This document shows positions 3,642 through 10,390 of a stretch of 64,000 nt of DNA, one piece after another. Position 1 is the first letter of the stretch, and every line of letters starts with the position of its first letter. The position numbers were made by a program, and so were the translations under genes. The notes under the pieces were generated by a model. It was not told where the DNA came from, did not search any database, and saw only the letters and a program-made list of their open reading frames with translations. Location: positions 2,322,501 through 2,386,500 of the forward strand of contig NZ_CP146986.1 in the NCBI RefSeq assembly GCF_037126175.1, read 5' to 3'. Source of the DNA: Pseudomonas sp. RSB 5.4. Its GTDB lineage: Bacteria; Pseudomonadota; Gammaproteobacteria; Pseudomonadales; Pseudomonadaceae.

Positions 3642-4658
3642 ATGCTGGTCTTACGCCCAGTCGAGCCAACCGACCTGCCGCAATTGCAGCAACTGGCCCG
3701 CGACAGTCTGGTCGGCGTTACGTCGCTGCCGGACGACAGCGAACGCCTGCGCGAAAAAATCGCCGGTTCCTGCGCCTCGTTCGACAGCGATATTCAGGCG
3801 CAAGGCCCGGAGAACTACTTCTTCGTACTGGAAGACCTCGACACTCGGCGGCTGGTCGGTTGCTCGGAGATCCTTGCCACTGCCGGTTTCAACGAACCGT
3901 TCTACAGCCTGCGCAACCGCCACTTCACCAGTGCCTCGCGGGAGCTGAACATCGAGCACGGGGTGCCGGCGCTGTCGCTGTGTCACGACCTCAACGACCA
4001 CACCCTGCTGCGCGGTTTTCACATCGACAACGCGCTGGTGCGCAGCGCTTTTTCCGAATTGCTGTCGCGGGCGCGGCTGCTGTTCATCGCCGCTCACGCG
4101 CAACGTTTCGCCGATGCGGTGATCACCGAAATCGTCGGCTACAGCGACGAGAACGGTCATTCGCCGTTCTGGGATGCACTGGGCAAGCACTTCTTCGACC
4201 TGCCCTACGTCGAGGCCGAGCGCCTGTGCGGTCTGCAAAGTCGCACGTTTCTCGCCGAACTGATGCCGCAGTACCCGATTTATGTGCCGATGCTGCCCCT
4301 GGCGGCGCAGGAATGCATCGGCCGGATTCACCCGGATGGCCAGGAAGCGTTCGACATCCTCGAACGTGAAGGCTTTGAAACCAACAGCTACATCGATCTG
4401 TTTGATGCGGGTCCAACCCTGTATGCGCGCACCGCGAACATCCGTTCGATCGCCCACAGCCAGACCGCCACCGTGCGCCAGCAAGCGCCGATCGACGCGC
4501 GTGGCCGTTATCTGTTGAGCAACGACGCACTGCACGGCTTCCGGGCCATCGTCGCCGAACTGGATTACCAGCCTGAGCAACCGCTGTCGCTGACGCCGGA
4601 TCTGTGTGTGGCACTGAAGGTCACCGATGGCAGCACGATCAGGCTGATAGCCCTGTGA
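3642..4658 (+). CDS. arginine N-succinyltransferase-like protein, AruF type
   Basis: A 338-residue member of the AstA/AruF/AruG family. Family members transfer succinyl from succinyl-CoA to the alpha-amino group of arginine or ornithine, the first step of the succinyltransferase pathway. It begins MLVLRPVEPTDLPQL and keeps the signature blocks GVTSLPDD, FFVLEDL, VVTEIVGYSDENG-like (here ITEIVGYSDENG), SPFWDALGKHFF and FLAELMPQYPIYV. An RBS (CAGGAG) precedes the ATG. The normal aru operon partners (aruC, aruD, aruB, aruE) are not adjacent, and the middle region reads differently from the AruF I remember. This is therefore probably a paralogue, forming a heteromer with the next gene. Confidence 0.82.
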   Translation: MLVLRPVEPTDLPQLQQLARDSLVGVTSLPDDSERLREKIAGSCASFDSDIQAQGPENYFFVLEDLDTRRLVGCSEILATAGFNEPFYSLRNRHFTSASRELNIEHGVPALSLCHDLNDHTLLRGFHIDNALVRSAFSELLSRARLLFIAAHAQRFADAVITEIVGYSDENGHSPFWDALGKHFFDLPYVEAERLCGLQSRTFLAELMPQYPIYVPMLPLAAQECIGRIHPDGQEAFDILEREGFETNSYIDLFDAGPTLYARTANIRSIAHSQTATVRQQAPIDARGRYLLSNDALHGFRAIVAELDYQPEQPLSLTPDLCVALKVTDGSTIRLIAL

Positions 4659-4719
4659 ACCGCCCCCGGCTGCACACCCAACGACAGTGCCCGAACAGGC
4701 GCGTACAAGGAGTTACCGC

Positions 4720-5754
4720 ATGATCGTCCGTCCGGTCAAAGTCAGCGACCTGCCAGCGCTGATGACCCTGGTGCAACAGGCCGGCCCGGGGTTCACCACC
4801 CTGCCGGCCAATGAGGATCGCCTCGCCCACCGGGTGCGCTGGGCCCAGCGCGCGTTCGCCGAACAGGTAGAACGCGCCGATGCCGATTATCTATTCGTGC
4901 TCGAAGACGACGACCTGCGTGTGGTCGGCGTCAGCGCCCTGACCGGCGCAGTCGGCCTGCGCGAGCCGTGGTACAACTACCGGGTCGGCCTGACCGTGAG
5001 TTCGGCACCGGATCTGGGCATTTCGAGGCAGATCCCTACACTGTTCCTCAACAATGAGCTGACGGGCCAGTCGGAACTGTGTTCGCTGTTCCTGCACCCT
5101 GAACACCGCCAAGGCAGCAACGGTCGATTGCTGTCGTTGGGGCGCCTGCTGTTCGTCGCCGAATTCCCGCAGCTGTTTGGCGAGAAGATGATCGCCGAAC
5201 TGCGCGGCAGTGCCGATGAGCTCGGTTGCTCGCCGTTCTGGGACAGCCTCGGCCGGCACTTTTTCAAGATGGATTTCAGCCACGCCGACCACTTGTCGGG
5301 CCTGGGCAACAAGTCGTTCATCGCCGAACTGATGCCGCGCCAGCCGTTGTACACCTGCATGCTCACCGAGCAGGCGCAAGCGGTCATCGGCCAACCGCAC
5401 CCGAACACCGAACCGGCGCTGAAGATCCTGCGCGCAGAAGGCTTCACGCATAAGGGCTACATCGACATCTTCGACGGCGGCCCGGTGATCGAGGCGCCGA
5501 TCGGCAACATTCGCACCGTGCGCGACAGCCTGGCGCTGACCCTGAGCCTCGGCACGCCGGACGAACAGGCCCCCTTGTGGCTGATCCATAACCGTCGCCT
5601 GGAGAACTGCCGCATCACCGTGGCCCCCGGTCGTCTGGTCGGCAATACCCTGGTGGTCGACCGCATCACCGCCAAGCGCCTGCAACTGCAACCGGGCAAT
5701 TCGGTGCGCGCCGCGTTGCTGCCCAGGCAACAGCAACAGGCGGTAGCGGCCTGA
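4720..5754 (+). CDS. arginine N-succinyltransferase-like protein, AruG type
   Basis: A 344-residue partner of the preceding gene. It begins MIVRPVKVSDLPAL and carries the AruG-like blocks LPANEDRLAHRV, YLFVLEDDD, VGLREPWYNYRVGL, IPTLFLNNELTGQSELCSLF, SPFWDSLGRHFFKM and FIAELMPRQPLY. The ATG at 4720 has a strong RBS (AAGGAG) and matches where AruG proteins begin; the longer open frame from 4687 would add a tail with no family support. In P. aeruginosa, AruF and AruG are the two subunits of arginine/ornithine succinyltransferase. Here the pair is separated from a full aru operon, which suggests a different or extra substrate. Confidence 0.82.
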   Translation: MIVRPVKVSDLPALMTLVQQAGPGFTTLPANEDRLAHRVRWAQRAFAEQVERADADYLFVLEDDDLRVVGVSALTGAVGLREPWYNYRVGLTVSSAPDLGISRQIPTLFLNNELTGQSELCSLFLHPEHRQGSNGRLLSLGRLLFVAEFPQLFGEKMIAELRGSADELGCSPFWDSLGRHFFKMDFSHADHLSGLGNKSFIAELMPRQPLYTCMLTEQAQAVIGQPHPNTEPALKILRAEGFTHKGYIDIFDGGPVIEAPIGNIRTVRDSLALTLSLGTPDEQAPLWLIHNRRLENCRITVAPGRLVGNTLVVDRITAKRLQLQPGNSVRAALLPRQQQQAVAA

Positions 5755-5876
5755 ATTCCTCTCCTCCCTCGCAAATTCGTCATGAACCTTGACCCATTCG
5801 CGTGATAGCCTTTTCATTCTTCGGCGTTGACACCTTTGCTCAAGCCGTTCCATTCCTTTGTATTGGTGGAACTCGT

Positions 5877-6746
5877 ATGACCAGGCTTTCCCATCAAGAT
5901 TTGCGCCGTAACTTCCGTCAATTGCTGGCTTCGGACACCTGCTACCACACCGCCTCGGTGTTCGATCCGATGTCCGCGCGCATTGCCGCTGACCTGGGTT
6001 TTGAAGTGGGGATCCTCGGCGGCTCCGTGGCCTCGCTGCAAGTGCTGGGCGCCCCCGACTTTGCCCTGATCACCCTCAGCGAGTTCGCCGAACAGGCCAC
6101 CCGCATCGGCCGCGTCGCCCAACTGCCGGTGATCGCCGACGCCGACCACGGCTACGGCAACGCCCTTAACGTGATGCGCACCATCGTCGAACTGGAACGC
6201 GCCGGCGTCGCCGCCCTGACCATCGAAGATACCCTGCTGCCGGCGCAATTCGGCCGCAAATCCACCGACCTGATCTCGGTCGCCGAAGGCGTCGGCAAGA
6301 TCCGCGCGGCGCTGGAAGCCCGGGTCGATTCGGAAATGGCGATCATCGCCCGCACCAACGCCGGGATCCTGCCAAATCAGGAAATCATCAGCCGTACCAA
6401 GCAATACCAGGCTGCCGGTGCCGATGGCATCTGCATGGTCGGCGTGCAGGACTTCGATCAGCTTGAGCAAATTGCCGAGCACCTGAGCGTCCCGCTGATG
6501 CTGGTCACCTACGGCAACCCGGCGCTGCGCGACGACAAGCGCCTGGCTGAACTCGGCGTACGCGTGACCATCGACGGCCATGGCGCCTATTTCGCGGCGA
6601 TCAAGGCAACGTACGACAGCCTGCGCGAACAGCGGCAGATCTTCACTCAGGCCTCCGACCTGAGCGCCACGGAACTCACGCACACCTACACCCAGCCAGA
6701 GGATTACATTCTCTGGGCGAAGGAATACATGAGCGTGAAGGAATGA
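5877..6746 (+). CDS. oxaloacetate decarboxylase, isocitrate lyase/PEP mutase superfamily
   Basis: A 289-residue TIM-barrel protein close in sequence style to the Pseudomonas oxaloacetate decarboxylase PA4872. It shows [31 protein letters not shown] (Mg-binding acidic residues), TIEDTLLP and IIARTNAG. It converts oxaloacetate to pyruvate and CO2 in the known family member. The ATG at 5877 begins [17 protein letters not shown], which fits the family N-terminus; the open frame upstream is not needed. It lies 122 bases downstream of the AruG-like gene and could feed carbon from amino-acid breakdown into pyruvate. It may have its own promoter. Confidence 0.85.
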
Positions 6747-6785
6747 TTGCCCTCTGATCCGAAGAGCCTCGGTCAACTCTAAAGA

Positions 6786-6813
6786 TGGCCGGTAGACGCA
6801 ATGTCACCGGCCA
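6786..6813 (+). terminator. hairpin after oxaloacetate decarboxylase gene
   Basis: Eight-base arms TGGCCGGT (6786-6793) and ACCGGCCA (6806-6813) around a 12-base loop, 40 bases after the stop codon. There is no U-run, so its action as an intrinsic terminator is uncertain. Confidence 0.4.
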
Positions 6814-6904
6814 GTTGCGAGGACAGGCGAATTAATCGCCGTCAACTTCTACCCAGCGATACACACCCACAAACAAACACCAACATTTAACAACAACTAC
6901 CGAG

Positions 6905-6932
6905 TTGATATTAACTATCGCCTCCCTATAAT
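6905..6932 (+). promoter_or_regulatory. near-consensus sigma-70 promoter of the small-peptide operon
   Basis: A -35 box TTGATA (6905-6910), a 16-base spacer and a perfect -10 box TATAAT (6927-6932) lie in an AT-rich stretch. Transcription would start near 6939, giving a leader of about 90 bases before the ATG at 7030. It is the best promoter seen by eye in the window and predicts strong expression of the first peptide. Confidence 0.72.
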
Positions 6933-6940
6933 CGCAACCC

Positions 6941-6962
6941 GTTAAACAGCAAAAAGTTTAAC
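6941..6962 (+). promoter_or_regulatory. inverted repeat at the predicted start site (operator candidate)
   Basis: Perfect 7-base arms GTTAAAC (6941-6947) and GTTTAAC (6956-6962) lie just after the -10 box, where a repressor would block initiation. It could equally be a short hairpin at the 5' end of the mRNA. Confidence 0.4.
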
Positions 6963-7029
6963 ACCCGAATATCAAACTTAAATTTATATACCGAGCAATA
7001 TTCCGCTCAACTCACGACAAGGATTCGTC

Positions 7030-7209
7030 ATGAAAACCGTTACTGCCAATTGGCAAACAACGCCTCTGCTGCGCGCAGAAACCAAAGTCATCAACATGCC
7101 AACCAAGTCCGCCCACGCGGCCAACTGCCCGGGCTGGGACGGCCTGCGATTTAACGTCGGCAACCTTCACGAGATCAAGAAACTCCGTACGCTGCCCGCT
7201 CTGGCTTAA
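7030..7209 (+). CDS. small peptide, first of two paralogues (unknown; RiPP precursor-like)
   Basis: A 59-residue peptide, with AAGGA before the ATG. It aligns with the 58-residue product of 8805-8981 along nearly its whole length. Shared residues are W8, T11-P12-L13-L14, A16, V20-I21-N22, P24, C33, G35, and near the end an aromatic followed by NVGN-L/I-HEIK (here FNVGNLHEIK, about residues 41-50). There is no signal peptide and no hydrophobic helix. Conserved blocks at both ends around a variable alanine-rich middle, together with the single conserved Cys, would suit a precursor for modifying enzymes or a small binding protein. I do not recognise the family. The strong upstream promoter and a following hairpin suggest it is made in excess over the next genes. 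Confidence 0.72.
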   Translation: MKTVTANWQTTPLLRAETKVINMPTKSAHAANCPGWDGLRFNVGNLHEIKKLRTLPALA

Positions 7210-7225
7210 CCCTCGGAGCTGTACC

Positions 7226-7266
7226 GCAGATGTCAGCGTTCAGGCAACTTCAGCGCTGACATCTGC
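7226..7266 (+). terminator. 13-bp perfect hairpin between peptide 1 and the next gene
   Basis: Perfect 13-base arms (7226-7238 and 7254-7266, GCAGATGTCAGCG and its complement) around a 15-base loop, 16 bases after the peptide stop. No T-run follows, so it looks more like an RNA stabiliser, processing site or partial attenuator. It could give high peptide 1 and lower downstream expression from one transcript. Confidence 0.6.
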
Positions 7267-7357
7267 TGACCAAAACAAAATAACAAACCCTGATTATTGC
7301 GCCTGATCAAATATTCGCAAACGTACATTTGACAGCACAAAAACAAAGCGACTTCCC

Positions 7358-8131
7358 ATGATAAAAAACCTGCTCACCCCAGACTTGACGCCTGACCAGC
7401 TTATTACCTGCATCAAGACAATAAACATGGGGAATGAAGTAAAGCGTCTGGCCGACCAGTTATCCGAACCTGCAGCAGATACCGAGAATTTATCCCGTCA
7501 CGCCGCGATCATGAAAGCGACGAACATCCACACTGGAACGTTGACGTTATATTGCAACAAAGATGGAAACATCAGCCTCAAGGCACCTGATAACGCACCC
7601 GCGCCTGAGCAGTTCTATTCCGTACCCGGAAACAGCGTTCTGTTCGCCATCAACGGGCAATCGTATTCCATTCAGCTTTATCGGCTGGACGGTGAATATC
7701 TGACTCGCGCAGAACAGGTGATCGTGGATGCCGAAAATCCGTTGTTCATCGACGGCAGCAAAACGCTGTACGACAGCAATCCCGAAGGAAACGGGCACCC
7801 GGCGTTTATCGGCAGCATCAATCTGCCCGATAGAACCGCAGACATCAGTGTGTTCGACCCTCGCTCATTGCGCAAAATCGGCTGGTTCCCTCATGACGAC
7901 AGCGCCGCGCGCTTTCTGGTGAGTCTTGAATTGCTTGAAGCGGCACAGGACCCCGGAGCCTGCAAAGTGGCCCAGGAGTTGATTTATCACTATCACCCCG
8001 CTGTCGTCTGGAAGGCCTTTCAGATGATCAGCAGAACGGATCGACAGACCGCGCTGAATTGCGCCCCGCTGTTGAGAAACCTGCAAGACAGTCGCCTGAA
8101 CCATTTACTCGACCAGTGTGAGGCGGCATGA
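7358..8131 (+). CDS. uncharacterised protein of the peptide operon (A)
   Basis: A 257-residue cytoplasmic protein with no signal peptide or membrane segment. The middle (about residues 60-185) is rich in beta-strand-like repeats (TLTLYCNKDGNISL, FYSVPGNSVLFAINGQ, YSIQLYRLDGEYL), which suggests a beta-barrel or cupin-like fold. The last 70 residues are helical (LVSLELLEAAQDPGACKVAQ, then YHYHPAVVWKAFQMI) and look like HEAT-type helices. His pairs (YHYHP) and several Cys residues could bind metal. It follows peptide 1 by 148 bases and overlaps the next gene by ATGA. A role as partner or maturation protein of the flanking peptides is inferred only from position. I do not recognise the family. 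Confidence 0.7.
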   Translation: MIKNLLTPDLTPDQLITCIKTINMGNEVKRLADQLSEPAADTENLSRHAAIMKATNIHTGTLTLYCNKDGNISLKAPDNAPAPEQFYSVPGNSVLFAINGQSYSIQLYRLDGEYLTRAEQVIVDAENPLFIDGSKTLYDSNPEGNGHPAFIGSINLPDRTADISVFDPRSLRKIGWFPHDDSAARFLVSLELLEAAQDPGACKVAQELIYHYHPAVVWKAFQMISRTDRQTALNCAPLLRNLQDSRLNHLLDQCEAA

Positions 8132-8808
8132 AACTGCAGACATTTATTGAGCGTATGGCGACTTACGACCTGCAGACGGACAGTTCGAAGATCGTGGAAG
8201 ATCTGCGTCAACTGGCGACTAACCGCACGTTGTTGAGCGAATACCTCTACACCACGATTCAACAGGACGGTTTCAGTACCAAAAACAGGCTTTACGGGGC
8301 CTATGCATTTGTCCTGCACTCCAACGATCTGTTTACCGTTCGCCTGGGTTTCTGGTCGCCGGTCACGTCACGGGATGAAAGGGAAACCTTTATCTACGAC
8401 CTCAACCACAGCCATGACTTCGAACTCTATTGCGTGGGTTACAGCGGTGACGGCTACACCACCGTTTCGCGAAAGATTCTGGATCAGGCGCCGTTGCAGG
8501 CTGGCAGAAGGCCCGAGTTCGGCGAAGAACGAATCCTTAAACTTATTCCGGGTGAGGTGCTGCACATGCTTCCATTAAAGGAAGTACACAAACAGCTACC
8601 CCCTGAAACGATGTCCGCCTCGCTGAGTTTGCTTATTCATCCTCCGCAGGCAGCCAAAACCGAAGAAGCCTGGTGCTTCGACGACAATCTGGTGCCGACT
8701 TATCCCGGCATCGCCCGCCAGGAGACAGCGCTCTATGACAGCCTGCTGTCCCGGCTACAACGTGAGCAGACTTCACTGCTCACTCAATCAGAAAGGAAAT
8801 CTGTATGA
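8128..8808 (+). CDS. uncharacterised cupin-like protein of the peptide operon (B)
   Basis: A 226-residue soluble protein, coupled by ATGA overlaps to the gene before it and to peptide 2 after it. A cupin-like core is visible. NHSHDFELYCVGYSGDG (about residues 92-108) offers an H-x-H-x2-E metal triad followed by a Gly turn, and PGEVLHMLPLKEVHKQLPP (about 140-158) offers the later His positions of a second cupin motif. Such folds include Fe-dependent dioxygenases and epimerases, so an oxidative change to a peptide is possible but unproven. N- and C-terminal parts are helical. No named family was recognised. Confidence 0.7.
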   Translation: MKLQTFIERMATYDLQTDSSKIVEDLRQLATNRTLLSEYLYTTIQQDGFSTKNRLYGAYAFVLHSNDLFTVRLGFWSPVTSRDERETFIYDLNHSHDFELYCVGYSGDGYTTVSRKILDQAPLQAGRRPEFGEERILKLIPGEVLHMLPLKEVHKQLPPETMSASLSLLIHPPQAAKTEEAWCFDDNLVPTYPGIARQETALYDSLLSRLQREQTSLLTQSERKSV

Positions 8809-8981
8809 ACAAGCAACTCGATAACTGGAACCACACCCCACTGCTGCACGCCGGCGCCAACGTCATCAACACACCGGTTGCAACCGCTGCGGCATCGCCA
8901 TGTGCAGGCATCATTCCACGGTACAACGTGGGCAACATTCACGAAATCAAGCAGTTCTGGAACATGCCGCAATCCGCTTGA
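8805..8981 (+). CDS. small peptide, second of two paralogues (unknown; RiPP precursor-like)
   Basis: A 58-residue peptide. Its ATG (8805) overlaps the stop of gene B and has GAAAGGAAA just upstream, so it is real and translationally coupled. It shares with peptide 1 W8, TPLL at 11-14, A16, VIN at 20-22, P24, C33, G35 and YNVGNIHEIK (residues 40-49). The middle is alanine/proline-rich and the tail (KQFWNMPQSA) differs. Two copies of such a short protein at opposite ends of one operon, with the same conserved positions, indicates selection on both. Function unknown. Confidence 0.72.
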   Translation: MNKQLDNWNHTPLLHAGANVINTPVATAAASPCAGIIPRYNVGNIHEIKQFWNMPQSA

Positions 8982-9040
8982 TTCTTGCTGGCCCGGCGCA
9001 CTATGAGGGTCAAGAAGTAGTGCGTCGGCCGGCCTGACGC

Positions 9041-9138
9041 CATCGCGAGCAGGCTCACTCCTACAGTGGATCTGTGTCGAACACCAATGCTGTGTTCACT
9101 GCAGATCCTCTGTGGGAGCGGGCTTGCTCGCGAAAGCG
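9041..9138. repeat. REP pair
   Basis: Two inverted REP units: CATCGCGAGCAGGCTCACTC with CTACAG (9041-9066) and CTGTGGGAGCGGGCTTGCTC with GCGAAAGCG (9110-9138). The pair lies between the peptide operon and the convergent carboxypeptidase gene and may act as a transcript-end structure for both. Confidence 0.75.
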
Positions 9139-9154
9139 TCAGTTGCAGCACCAG

Positions 9155-10390
9155 TCAGCGCTTGGCCAGCTCCATGATCATCCGCGACAACAGATAAATC
9201 CGTGGCGCCACGCTCGCCACTTCGGCGTATTCCTCCGGCGTATGAATATTGCCGCCGACTATCCCGAAACCATCCAGCGTCGGCGTGCCCACGCCGGCTG
9301 ACAGGCTGGCATCCGCCGCCCCACCACTGCCTTCCTCGGTCAACTTGCGGCCGATCTCGCCGTAAATCCCCTGGGCCATGGCCATCAAGCGATCCGACTC
9401 CGCCGTCTGCGGCATCGGTGGCAACCCGCGTTTGAGGCTGGTGGTCACTTCAGTTTCCGGGATCAGCTTGTCCTGCGACACCCGCGCCAGGTCTTTCTCG
9501 ATCCGGTCGAATTCTTCCGGCACGGCTGCGCGCACGTCAGCCTTGGCGGTCGCATGATCCGGGATCACGTTGGTGCGTTCACCGGCCTGGAGCACAGTGA
9601 AGTTGATCGTGGTTTTCTTCGCCTCGTCGCCGAGTTTGCCCAACTGCAGAATCTGGTGCGCCGCTTCCATCGCCGCGTTACGCCCCAGTTCCGGTGCGAC
9701 CCCGGCATGCGCCGCTTTGCCCTTGACCTCGACCAGCGCCGTCGCGCTGCCCTTGCGCCACACCACCAGACCATCGGCCGGCCGCCCCGGTTCGAGGTTG
9801 AGGGTTACGTCATGCGCCTTGGCGGTTTTCTTGATCAGGTCGGTGGCGACGTCCGAACCGGTTTCTTCGCTGGCATCGAGCAGGAAGGTGATTTGCGCGT
9901 AGTCCTTGAAGTCGAGATTCTTCAGAATCTTCAACGCGTAGATCCCGGCGACGATGCCGCCCTTGTCGTCCATCACCCCCGGCCCGTAGGCACGCCCGTC
10001 CTTGATGCGGAACGGCCGCTCGGCGGCGGAACCTTCCTTGAACACCGTGTCCATGTGCGCCATCAGGAGGATTTTCGCTTTGCCGGTGCCTTTGAAGGTG
10101 GCCAGCACGTGATTGGATTTTTCCGGGGCATTGGGCACCAGCTCGATGGTGGCGCCGAGTTTTTGCAACTCCTCGATGGCGATCTCGCTGACTTGCTTGA
10201 GCCCAGGCTCATAACCGGAACCGGAGTCGATGTTGACCAGCCGTTCCAGCAGTTTCAGGGCTTCGGGTTGATACTGTTCGGCGTCGGCCAGCACTTGTTT
10301 GTGCGGTTCGGCGAAGGCGCCGGCAGCACTGAAGGCGAGGGACAGGCCGAGGCTGGCGGCCAGCAGGGAGCGGGGGAATGCGAACGTCAT
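9155..10390 (-). CDS. carboxypeptidase G2-like M20 metallopeptidase, exported
   Basis: A 411-residue M20 family enzyme with a signal peptide (MTFAFPRSLLAASL to about AFA, residue 27). Di-zinc site residues are visible in MAHMDTVF, GVMDDKGG, DASEETGSD (catalytic Glu pair) and NLEPGRP, plus a dimerisation insert and a late GGNIHTPEEY His. Carboxypeptidase G2 of Pseudomonas removes C-terminal glutamate from folates and other N-acyl glutamates in the periplasm. Length and motif order match that enzyme closely. It stands alone, convergent with the peptide operon. Exact substrate range is inferred. Confidence 0.85.
   Translation of the reverse strand: MTFAFPRSLLAASLGLSLAFSAAGAFAEPHKQVLADAEQYQPEALKLLERLVNIDSGSGYEPGLKQVSEIAIEELQKLGATIELVPNAPEKSNHVLATFKGTGKAKILLMAHMDTVFKEGSAAERPFRIKDGRAYGPGVMDDKGGIVAGIYALKILKNLDFKDYAQITFLLDASEETGSDVATDLIKKTAKAHDVTLNLEPGRPADGLVVWRKGSATALVEVKGKAAHAGVAPELGRNAAMEAAHQILQLGKLGDEAKKTTINFTVLQAGERTNVIPDHATAKADVRAAVPEEFDRIEKDLARVSQDKLIPETEVTTSLKRGLPPMPQTAESDRLMAMAQGIYGEIGRKLTEEGSGGAADASLSAGVGTPTLDGFGIVGGNIHTPEEYAEVASVAPRIYLLSRMIMELAKR

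Follow-up and report, generated by a model that had tools for sequence, protein, structure and literature searches.

The locus treated here raises the question of what two larger proteins do between two small peptides that resemble each other. It lies in a 64,000-nucleotide stretch of the Pseudomonas sp. RSB 5.4 genome (contig NZ_CP146986.1, positions 2,322,501 to 2,386,500 of the forward strand; hereafter the window) and consists of four genes, designated the cassette. P1 and P2 are the small peptide genes, A and B the middle proteins, A′ and B′ distant relatives of the latter, and L with a number denotes a locus. The association of the peptides with A and B is real and conserved, and it is not described among the literature matches listed. 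On balance, the cassette is probably a maturation system resembling those for ribosomally synthesized and post-translationally modified peptides (RiPPs), in which B would act as an Fe(II)/O2 oxygenase modifying P1 and P2, and A would be a dead binding partner. The genes and the codons of the proposed metal ligands are located as follows.

7030..7209, + strand: P1, peptide gene, 59 aa, with the invariant C33
7358..8131, + strand: A, 257 aa, with a predicted barrel of the thiol-dioxygenase type over residues 1-180 that lacks the metal triad, and a helical tail; presumed pseudo-enzyme partner
8128..8808, + strand: B, 226 aa, predicted thiol-dioxygenase fold; candidate Fe(II) oxygenase
8407..8415, + strand: codons of B H94-S95-H96; H94 and H96 are the first two proposed metal ligands, present in 89/89 aligned B and B′
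8587..8589, + strand: codon of B H154, the third proposed metal ligand, present in 89/89 aligned B and B′
8805..8981, + strand: P2, peptide gene, 58 aa, with the invariant C33; ATGA overlap with B

The initial annotation is borne out for coordinates, lengths and strand and for the ATGA overlaps of A with B (8128-8131) and of B with P2 (8805-8808); the gap between P1 and A is 148 nucleotides.

Regarding the association itself, the nearest relative of B is 97% identical, and most of the named relatives belong to Pseudomonas. B is present in 16 of the 249 genomes sampled from the genus, and the peptide family, detected with a 39-row profile, in 15 of the 249, all among the 16 with B; every peptide match in this sample (17/17) adjoins an A-B pair. 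The only B without a peptide (G055) is a 77-residue match with an internal stop. The initial annotation had made its precursor idea depend on homologs of the middle proteins not occurring regularly without such peptides. Among the 249 genomes, every intact B is accompanied by a peptide and every peptide by a B, a result obtained by scoring 25 of the 47-98 first-look candidates per listed genome, so that a very divergent orphan peptide could escape detection. A is present in all 15 of the loci L004-L018. A contig scan for relatives of B gave 28 loci, and 28/28 contain A and B together with one or more peptides. The seeds of the peptide profile were ten peptides taken from the window and L004-L017, some of them from genomes that appear again in L019-L046. 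The order peptide-A-B-peptide, the conservation of which had been raised as a question, holds for the window but characterizes a minority of these loci (4/28); the peptide is only downstream in 21/28 and only upstream in 3/28. A short putative precursor gene is encoded together with a putative modifying enzyme, a role assigned to the neighbor from its fold.

Within this set of loci, the neighbors differ in the Morganella morganii locus (L031). In strain RIT288 (L019), P1 is lost and P2 and the promoter region are kept, as judged by eye; at L019:5101-5300 the start of A appears, by eye, to lack one base relative to the window, and A may be frameshifted there. In L007 and L028, the cassette lies ahead of a gene that is itself found ahead of the cassette in the window (5802-6746) and in L036, an arrangement that would fit local movement of the cassette. 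A second, more distant branch of Pseudomonas cassettes was seen by eye beside sucCD-like genes (L044, L046, L064 and L065).

P1 and P2 are paralogs, as had been proposed from the elements common to both: W8, TPLL, VIN, P24, C33, G35 and [FY]NVGN[LI]HEIK. They share 49% identity over 53 residues (BLASTP, E 2e-15 for the pair). When the whole single-contig genome of 6.24 Mb was searched with P1 at E <= 0.001, only P1 itself and P2 (E 1.3e-9) were matched; therefore, their likeness is far above chance, and a third copy was not found in this genome. The ratio of nonsynonymous to synonymous substitution rates (dN/dS) is low, at 0.14 and 0.18 for P1 against two relatives and 0.08, 0.16 and 0.34 for P2 against three (dS 0.7-1.5), indicating that both peptides are under purifying selection; the value for B is 0.15 in both comparisons. 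In the peptide alignment, which holds 39 of 40 distinct peptides (the omitted L038 peptide also has a cysteine), W8, A16, C33, R40, N42, H47, I49 and K50 are invariant, the mean column identity is 43%, and the stretch from C33 to R40 varies in length. The cysteine lies at about residue 30 in 39/39 encoded peptides, that is, internally, and prior proteolysis is possible. Of the two elements for which invariance had been at issue, the cysteine is kept throughout the 39 peptides, whereas NVGN-x-HEIK is not invariant, H47 being missing from a copy on a Vibrio plasmid.

In this Vibrio plasmid cassette, which provides an independent case of the association, A shows 27% identity (E 4e-27) and B 36%, and a 59 aa gene overlapping B matches P1 (BLASTP, E 2e-5). 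Its peptide reads C-G-G-A-T-L-R-W-N-V-S-D-I-K-Q-I-K-K against C-P-G-W-D-G-L-R-F-N-V-G-N-L-H-E-I-K-K in P1; the cysteine and the frame of R-x-N-V and I...IK are kept, whereas W8, A16 and H47 are not. This copy was the one match for B in plasmids; P2 as a query matched nothing in plasmids, the Vibrio peptide having been found afterwards by position, and B as a query matched nothing in phages. At L128:26-3877, a Tn3 transposase and a recombinase adjoin the cassette and restriction-modification genes surround it, a setting which hints that it may be mobile.

B, in which a cupin-like motif had been noted, has a predicted thiol-dioxygenase fold, which is a cupin fold, with an invariant HxH...H set. 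The structural evidence is a VIA-align re-examination of structures on Foldseek's list, in which the best rows for B are the small-molecule thiol dioxygenases 8vni and 4tlf, rows within 1 Z being tied. The three-histidine triad, which is present also in L126, was assigned by motif rather than from superposed coordinates; as the 39 distant B′ were excised using the HxH pattern, passed by all 39 loci, their HxH is partly conserved by construction, in contrast to H154. An arginine, R72, is conserved in 88/89 aligned B and B′. B matched no Pfam or NCBIfam family up to E 10; P1, A and P2 gave nothing useful in the same collections, DUF7482 (A) and Nup54_C (P2) remaining below the cut-offs. A PDB sequence search with profiles of A and B found no meaningful relative, and the DUF692 profile matched neither protein. 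Many relatives of B bear the public name "transposase", a label that was rejected, as no transposase profile matches and the predicted fold is that of an oxygenase.

Residues 1-180 of A match a thiol-dioxygenase-like fold in the structural rows as well. HxH occurs within barrel residues 55-180 in 2/52 relatives of A, the three-histidine triad is missing, and A is presumed to be a catalytically dead paralog of B. The paralogy is drawn from the fold, since the sequences by themselves give no significant match (hhalign E 0.088 for A against B and 0.016 for A′ against B′).

Taken as a mechanism, P1 and P2 would be ribosomal precursor peptides, and B, with its predicted thiol-dioxygenase fold and presumed use of Fe(II) and O2, would supply the metal site and modify them. 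A would most likely hold the peptide and complete the enzyme, as partner proteins do in other RiPP oxygenases; A and B would together form a heteromeric oxygenase acting on small ribosomal peptides. For the branch comprising Pseudomonas, Morganella and Vibrio, the most probable reaction would be oxidation of the internal cysteine to a sulfinate or a cysteine-derived cross-link, the leading guess because an invariant cysteine accompanies a thiol-dioxygenase fold. A peptide signal and a metal ligand are both candidate roles for the product. More tentatively, B as the active thiol dioxygenase and A as its inactive twin may constitute a heteromeric peptide oxygenase that converts the internal cysteine in this way, as a bacterial counterpart of the oxygen-sensing chemistry of ADO and PCO and the first of a Pseudomonadota-wide class of RiPP enzymes whose other branches oxidize cysteine-free peptides.

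The distant pairs bear on the generality of such a reaction. With the B profile, distant B′ were found in 2 of 369 genomes of the class and 10 of 299 of the phylum, the window's own included in both. A distant B′ as query was matched in 54 of 149 genomes of one alphaproteobacterial family (query included; the alphaproteobacterial placement follows from kinship and gene content), and the Vibrio B in 4 of 118 genomes of one gammaproteobacterial family. In one distant-B′ search, loci were taken for 30 of 57 matches. The 39 distant loci examined correspond to 36 genomes, the pairs L050/L092, L053/L094 and L054/L073 having been fetched twice. A same-strand open reading frame ends within 90 nt of the B′ start in 38/39 loci and encodes at least 260 aa in 34 of these 38, the position of A′ relative to B′ being constant; Pfam HEAT matches were above the cut-off in 2/3 A′ tested and only below it in 2/4 B′. 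Immediately ahead of A′, 32/39 loci (29/36 without repeats) encode a small peptide whose pattern is LPxxDxxxLPxLxxxxGxFGS...DD...YxY, as counted with a profile seeded from the same 39 loci. The pattern recurs in 21/28 larger loci, of largely overlapping genomes, in two of them only at E 0.06. Of the seven larger loci lacking it, L061, L062, L063 and L125 showed small genes by eye; a 39 aa gene in L132 resembles the one in L061. L130 and L131 share a nearly identical 53 aa gene with a leader ending in ELTLEDAEFVSGGG, which we take to be a textbook double-glycine leader; in L062, the leader is GG-like and a Peptidase C39 ABC transporter (E 3.8e-30) is encoded nearby. Large genes resembling those of nonribosomal peptide synthetases were observed by eye near the double-glycine-leader cassette (L133:82-5166 and L134:13005-18962).

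Several results weigh against reading the cassette as a peptide-maturation system, a putative role for which its layout is RiPP-like. P1 and P2 are conserved at both ends, with no clear boundary between leader and core. B lacks the Ser-His-Tyr set found in small-molecule thiol dioxygenases and has S-x-S-L-S instead, the last Ser being Asn in 39/39 distant B′, and the helical tail of A has no fold match, the rows covering residues 1-180. Sequence support for the relationship of A to A′ is weak: hhalign gave E 0.0037 over 73 columns, and the best match of a hidden Markov model search, located in L060 where A′ stands, had E 1.2e-4, and the next had 0.24. By eye, L060 and L122 have no clear peptide, and L126, in which the triad is present, has no match to the peptide profile. 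The C39 transporter of L062 was found as a query in none of 26 further distant loci and in none of 3 more. Beside the window cassette, no dedicated transporter or protease was recognized by eye; the absence of a dedicated exporter would fit an intracellular product or a general export route. Finally, a cysteine occurs in 1 of 29 distinct alphaproteobacterial peptide rows, that of L095, where it belongs to read-through sequence preceding the start Met.

Two more distant peptides contain a cysteine (L123 and L124); most distant peptides have hydrophobic C-termini and no cysteine. Thiol oxidation is therefore not the general reaction, and the reaction common to the family would be broader than sulfination. 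The oxidative change at the cysteine suggested in the initial annotation draws support from the fold of B and the cysteine of 39/39 peptides, but it does not extend to the cysteine-free distant peptides. The precursor idea likewise gains support from the peptide-A-B association. For the cysteine step only, a rival explanation is a serious contender, although short of an even chance: B may oxidize the peptide elsewhere, by hydroxylation, desaturation or cleavage, and the cysteine may serve, for example, in metal binding. The cysteine-free, hydrophobic C-termini beside the same enzyme pair point in this direction, and non-thiol oxidations are also carried out by cupins with three histidine ligands; however, a thiol-dioxygenase fold and an invariant cysteine meeting in one operon family would be a strong coincidence.

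An unlikely alternative to peptide maturation as a whole is that the peptides are regulatory or folding subunits rather than substrates, and that the A-B enzyme oxidizes a small thiol or another metabolite. The resemblance of B to 8vni and 4tlf agrees with this, as does R72, because a substrate-binding Arg is used by some small-molecule thiol dioxygenases according to PMC8503633, although R72 is no more than a putative structural equivalent of CDO Arg60. Against this alternative, the A/B pair persists across lineages in which the peptides have no relation to one another, the peptides duplicate within a locus, and they sometimes carry double-glycine leaders, all of which is more typical of substrates. 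A toxin-antitoxin or bacteriocin-immunity cassette is very improbable: the small genes do adjoin larger ones, the distribution is patchy (16/249), GC content is 0.53-0.57 in the four genes of the cassette but 0.63 in two measured flanking genes, and the plasmid copy lies near a Tn3 transposase, but P1, A, B and P2 have no PADLOC match, the two small genes are paralogs of each other, and the larger proteins resemble an oxygenase and its pseudo-enzyme. No specific support was found for the ligand or toxin/antitoxin-like readings of the initial annotation.

Maturation of P1 and P2 by A and B remains the preferred reading, and expression of the cassette may involve two further elements.

6905..6932, + strand: predicted sigma-70 promoter TTGATA-16-TATAAT, 11/12 consensus positions
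7226..7266, + strand: perfect 13 bp hairpin in the P1-A gap, -27.7 kcal/mol, z -4.4

The 11 of 12 consensus matches bear out the strong promoter that had been placed ahead of the operon; at a looser 9-of-12 threshold, 2 promoter-like sites were found against 1.8 expected by chance. The promoter region is still recognizable by eye in L019 and L020 and has diverged in L021. By eye, L019 and L020 show a palindrome spanning the -35 region; because the window has only an imperfect version of it and L021 a diverged one, the candidate was rejected and no regulator is claimed. The hairpin is the sole inverted repeat of at least 13 nt within 60 nt across 6700-9200. Strong folds of differing sequence (z -3.9 to -5.3) occur in 5/8 peptide-A gaps, the window included, and the remaining 3/8 gaps after an upstream peptide gave no fold signal; the hairpin could possibly set peptide mRNA above enzyme mRNA. 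Downstream of P2, the region 9030-9140 resembles what we take to be paired Pseudomonas repetitive extragenic palindromic elements. Upstream of the cassette (3642-5754), two neighboring, similar acyltransferase-like genes of 338 and 355 aa were seen by eye.

If the proposed maturation holds, the thiol-dioxygenase fold, as an active/inactive pair, would join the enzymes that modify ribosomal peptides, and an oxygenase family would combine a constant enzyme pair with substrates that differ completely between bacterial lineages. Two enzymes and a 58 aa peptide would make a small, cloneable system for asking whether bacteria employ the enzymatic oxidation of a peptide cysteine as a signal or to provide a metal ligand, in the way that plants and animals do with proteins. 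The public naming of many B relatives is also corrected.

Judged by title and abstract, none of the literature matches listed, mostly non-subscription papers, connects peptides of this kind with a thiol dioxygenase or with a cupin/HEAT pair. Thiol dioxygenases (CDO, 3-mercaptopropionate and mercaptosuccinate dioxygenase) share the predicted fold of B; the cassette differs in having no Ser-His-Tyr set, no Pfam or NCBIfam match, a dead paralog and a peptide gene. The Ser-His-Tyr motif is also lacking in ADO and PCO, as PMC8503633 states. ADO and PCO act on an N-terminal cysteine, whereas C33 is internal, and, when aligned by motif, they have Asp at the motif His position, where B has Ser and distant B′ Asn. 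For protein substrates of ADO, the free N-terminal thiol and amine are vital, according to PMC12098869, so that a reaction at an internal cysteine would be unlike that of ADO, or the peptide would first be cut before C33. The MNIO (DUF692) enzymes with a partner, such as MbnBC (PMC8888699), would be alike in that an iron enzyme and its partner act on precursor-peptide cysteines; they differ in that A and B have no DUF692 match and a predicted cupin barrel instead. Clusters with HEXXH and MNIO enzymes, described for Pseudomonas RiPPs in PMC12636437, are unlike the cassette. PbsQ is likewise a cupin-like protein in RiPP biosynthesis; according to PMC12257519, it is related to a JmjC-domain protein and hydroxylates ornithine after other enzymes, with no thiol-dioxygenase pair. 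In crocagin biosynthesis, the dioxygenase CgnC needs two homologous peptide-binding proteins, CgnB and CgnE, one of which is metal-free (PMC10070186). The crocagin system would resemble the cassette in that a peptide oxygenase is assisted by peptide-binding protein, and differs in that CgnB and CgnE are aminopeptidase-like, CgnC needs 2-oxoglutarate, and the folds are others.

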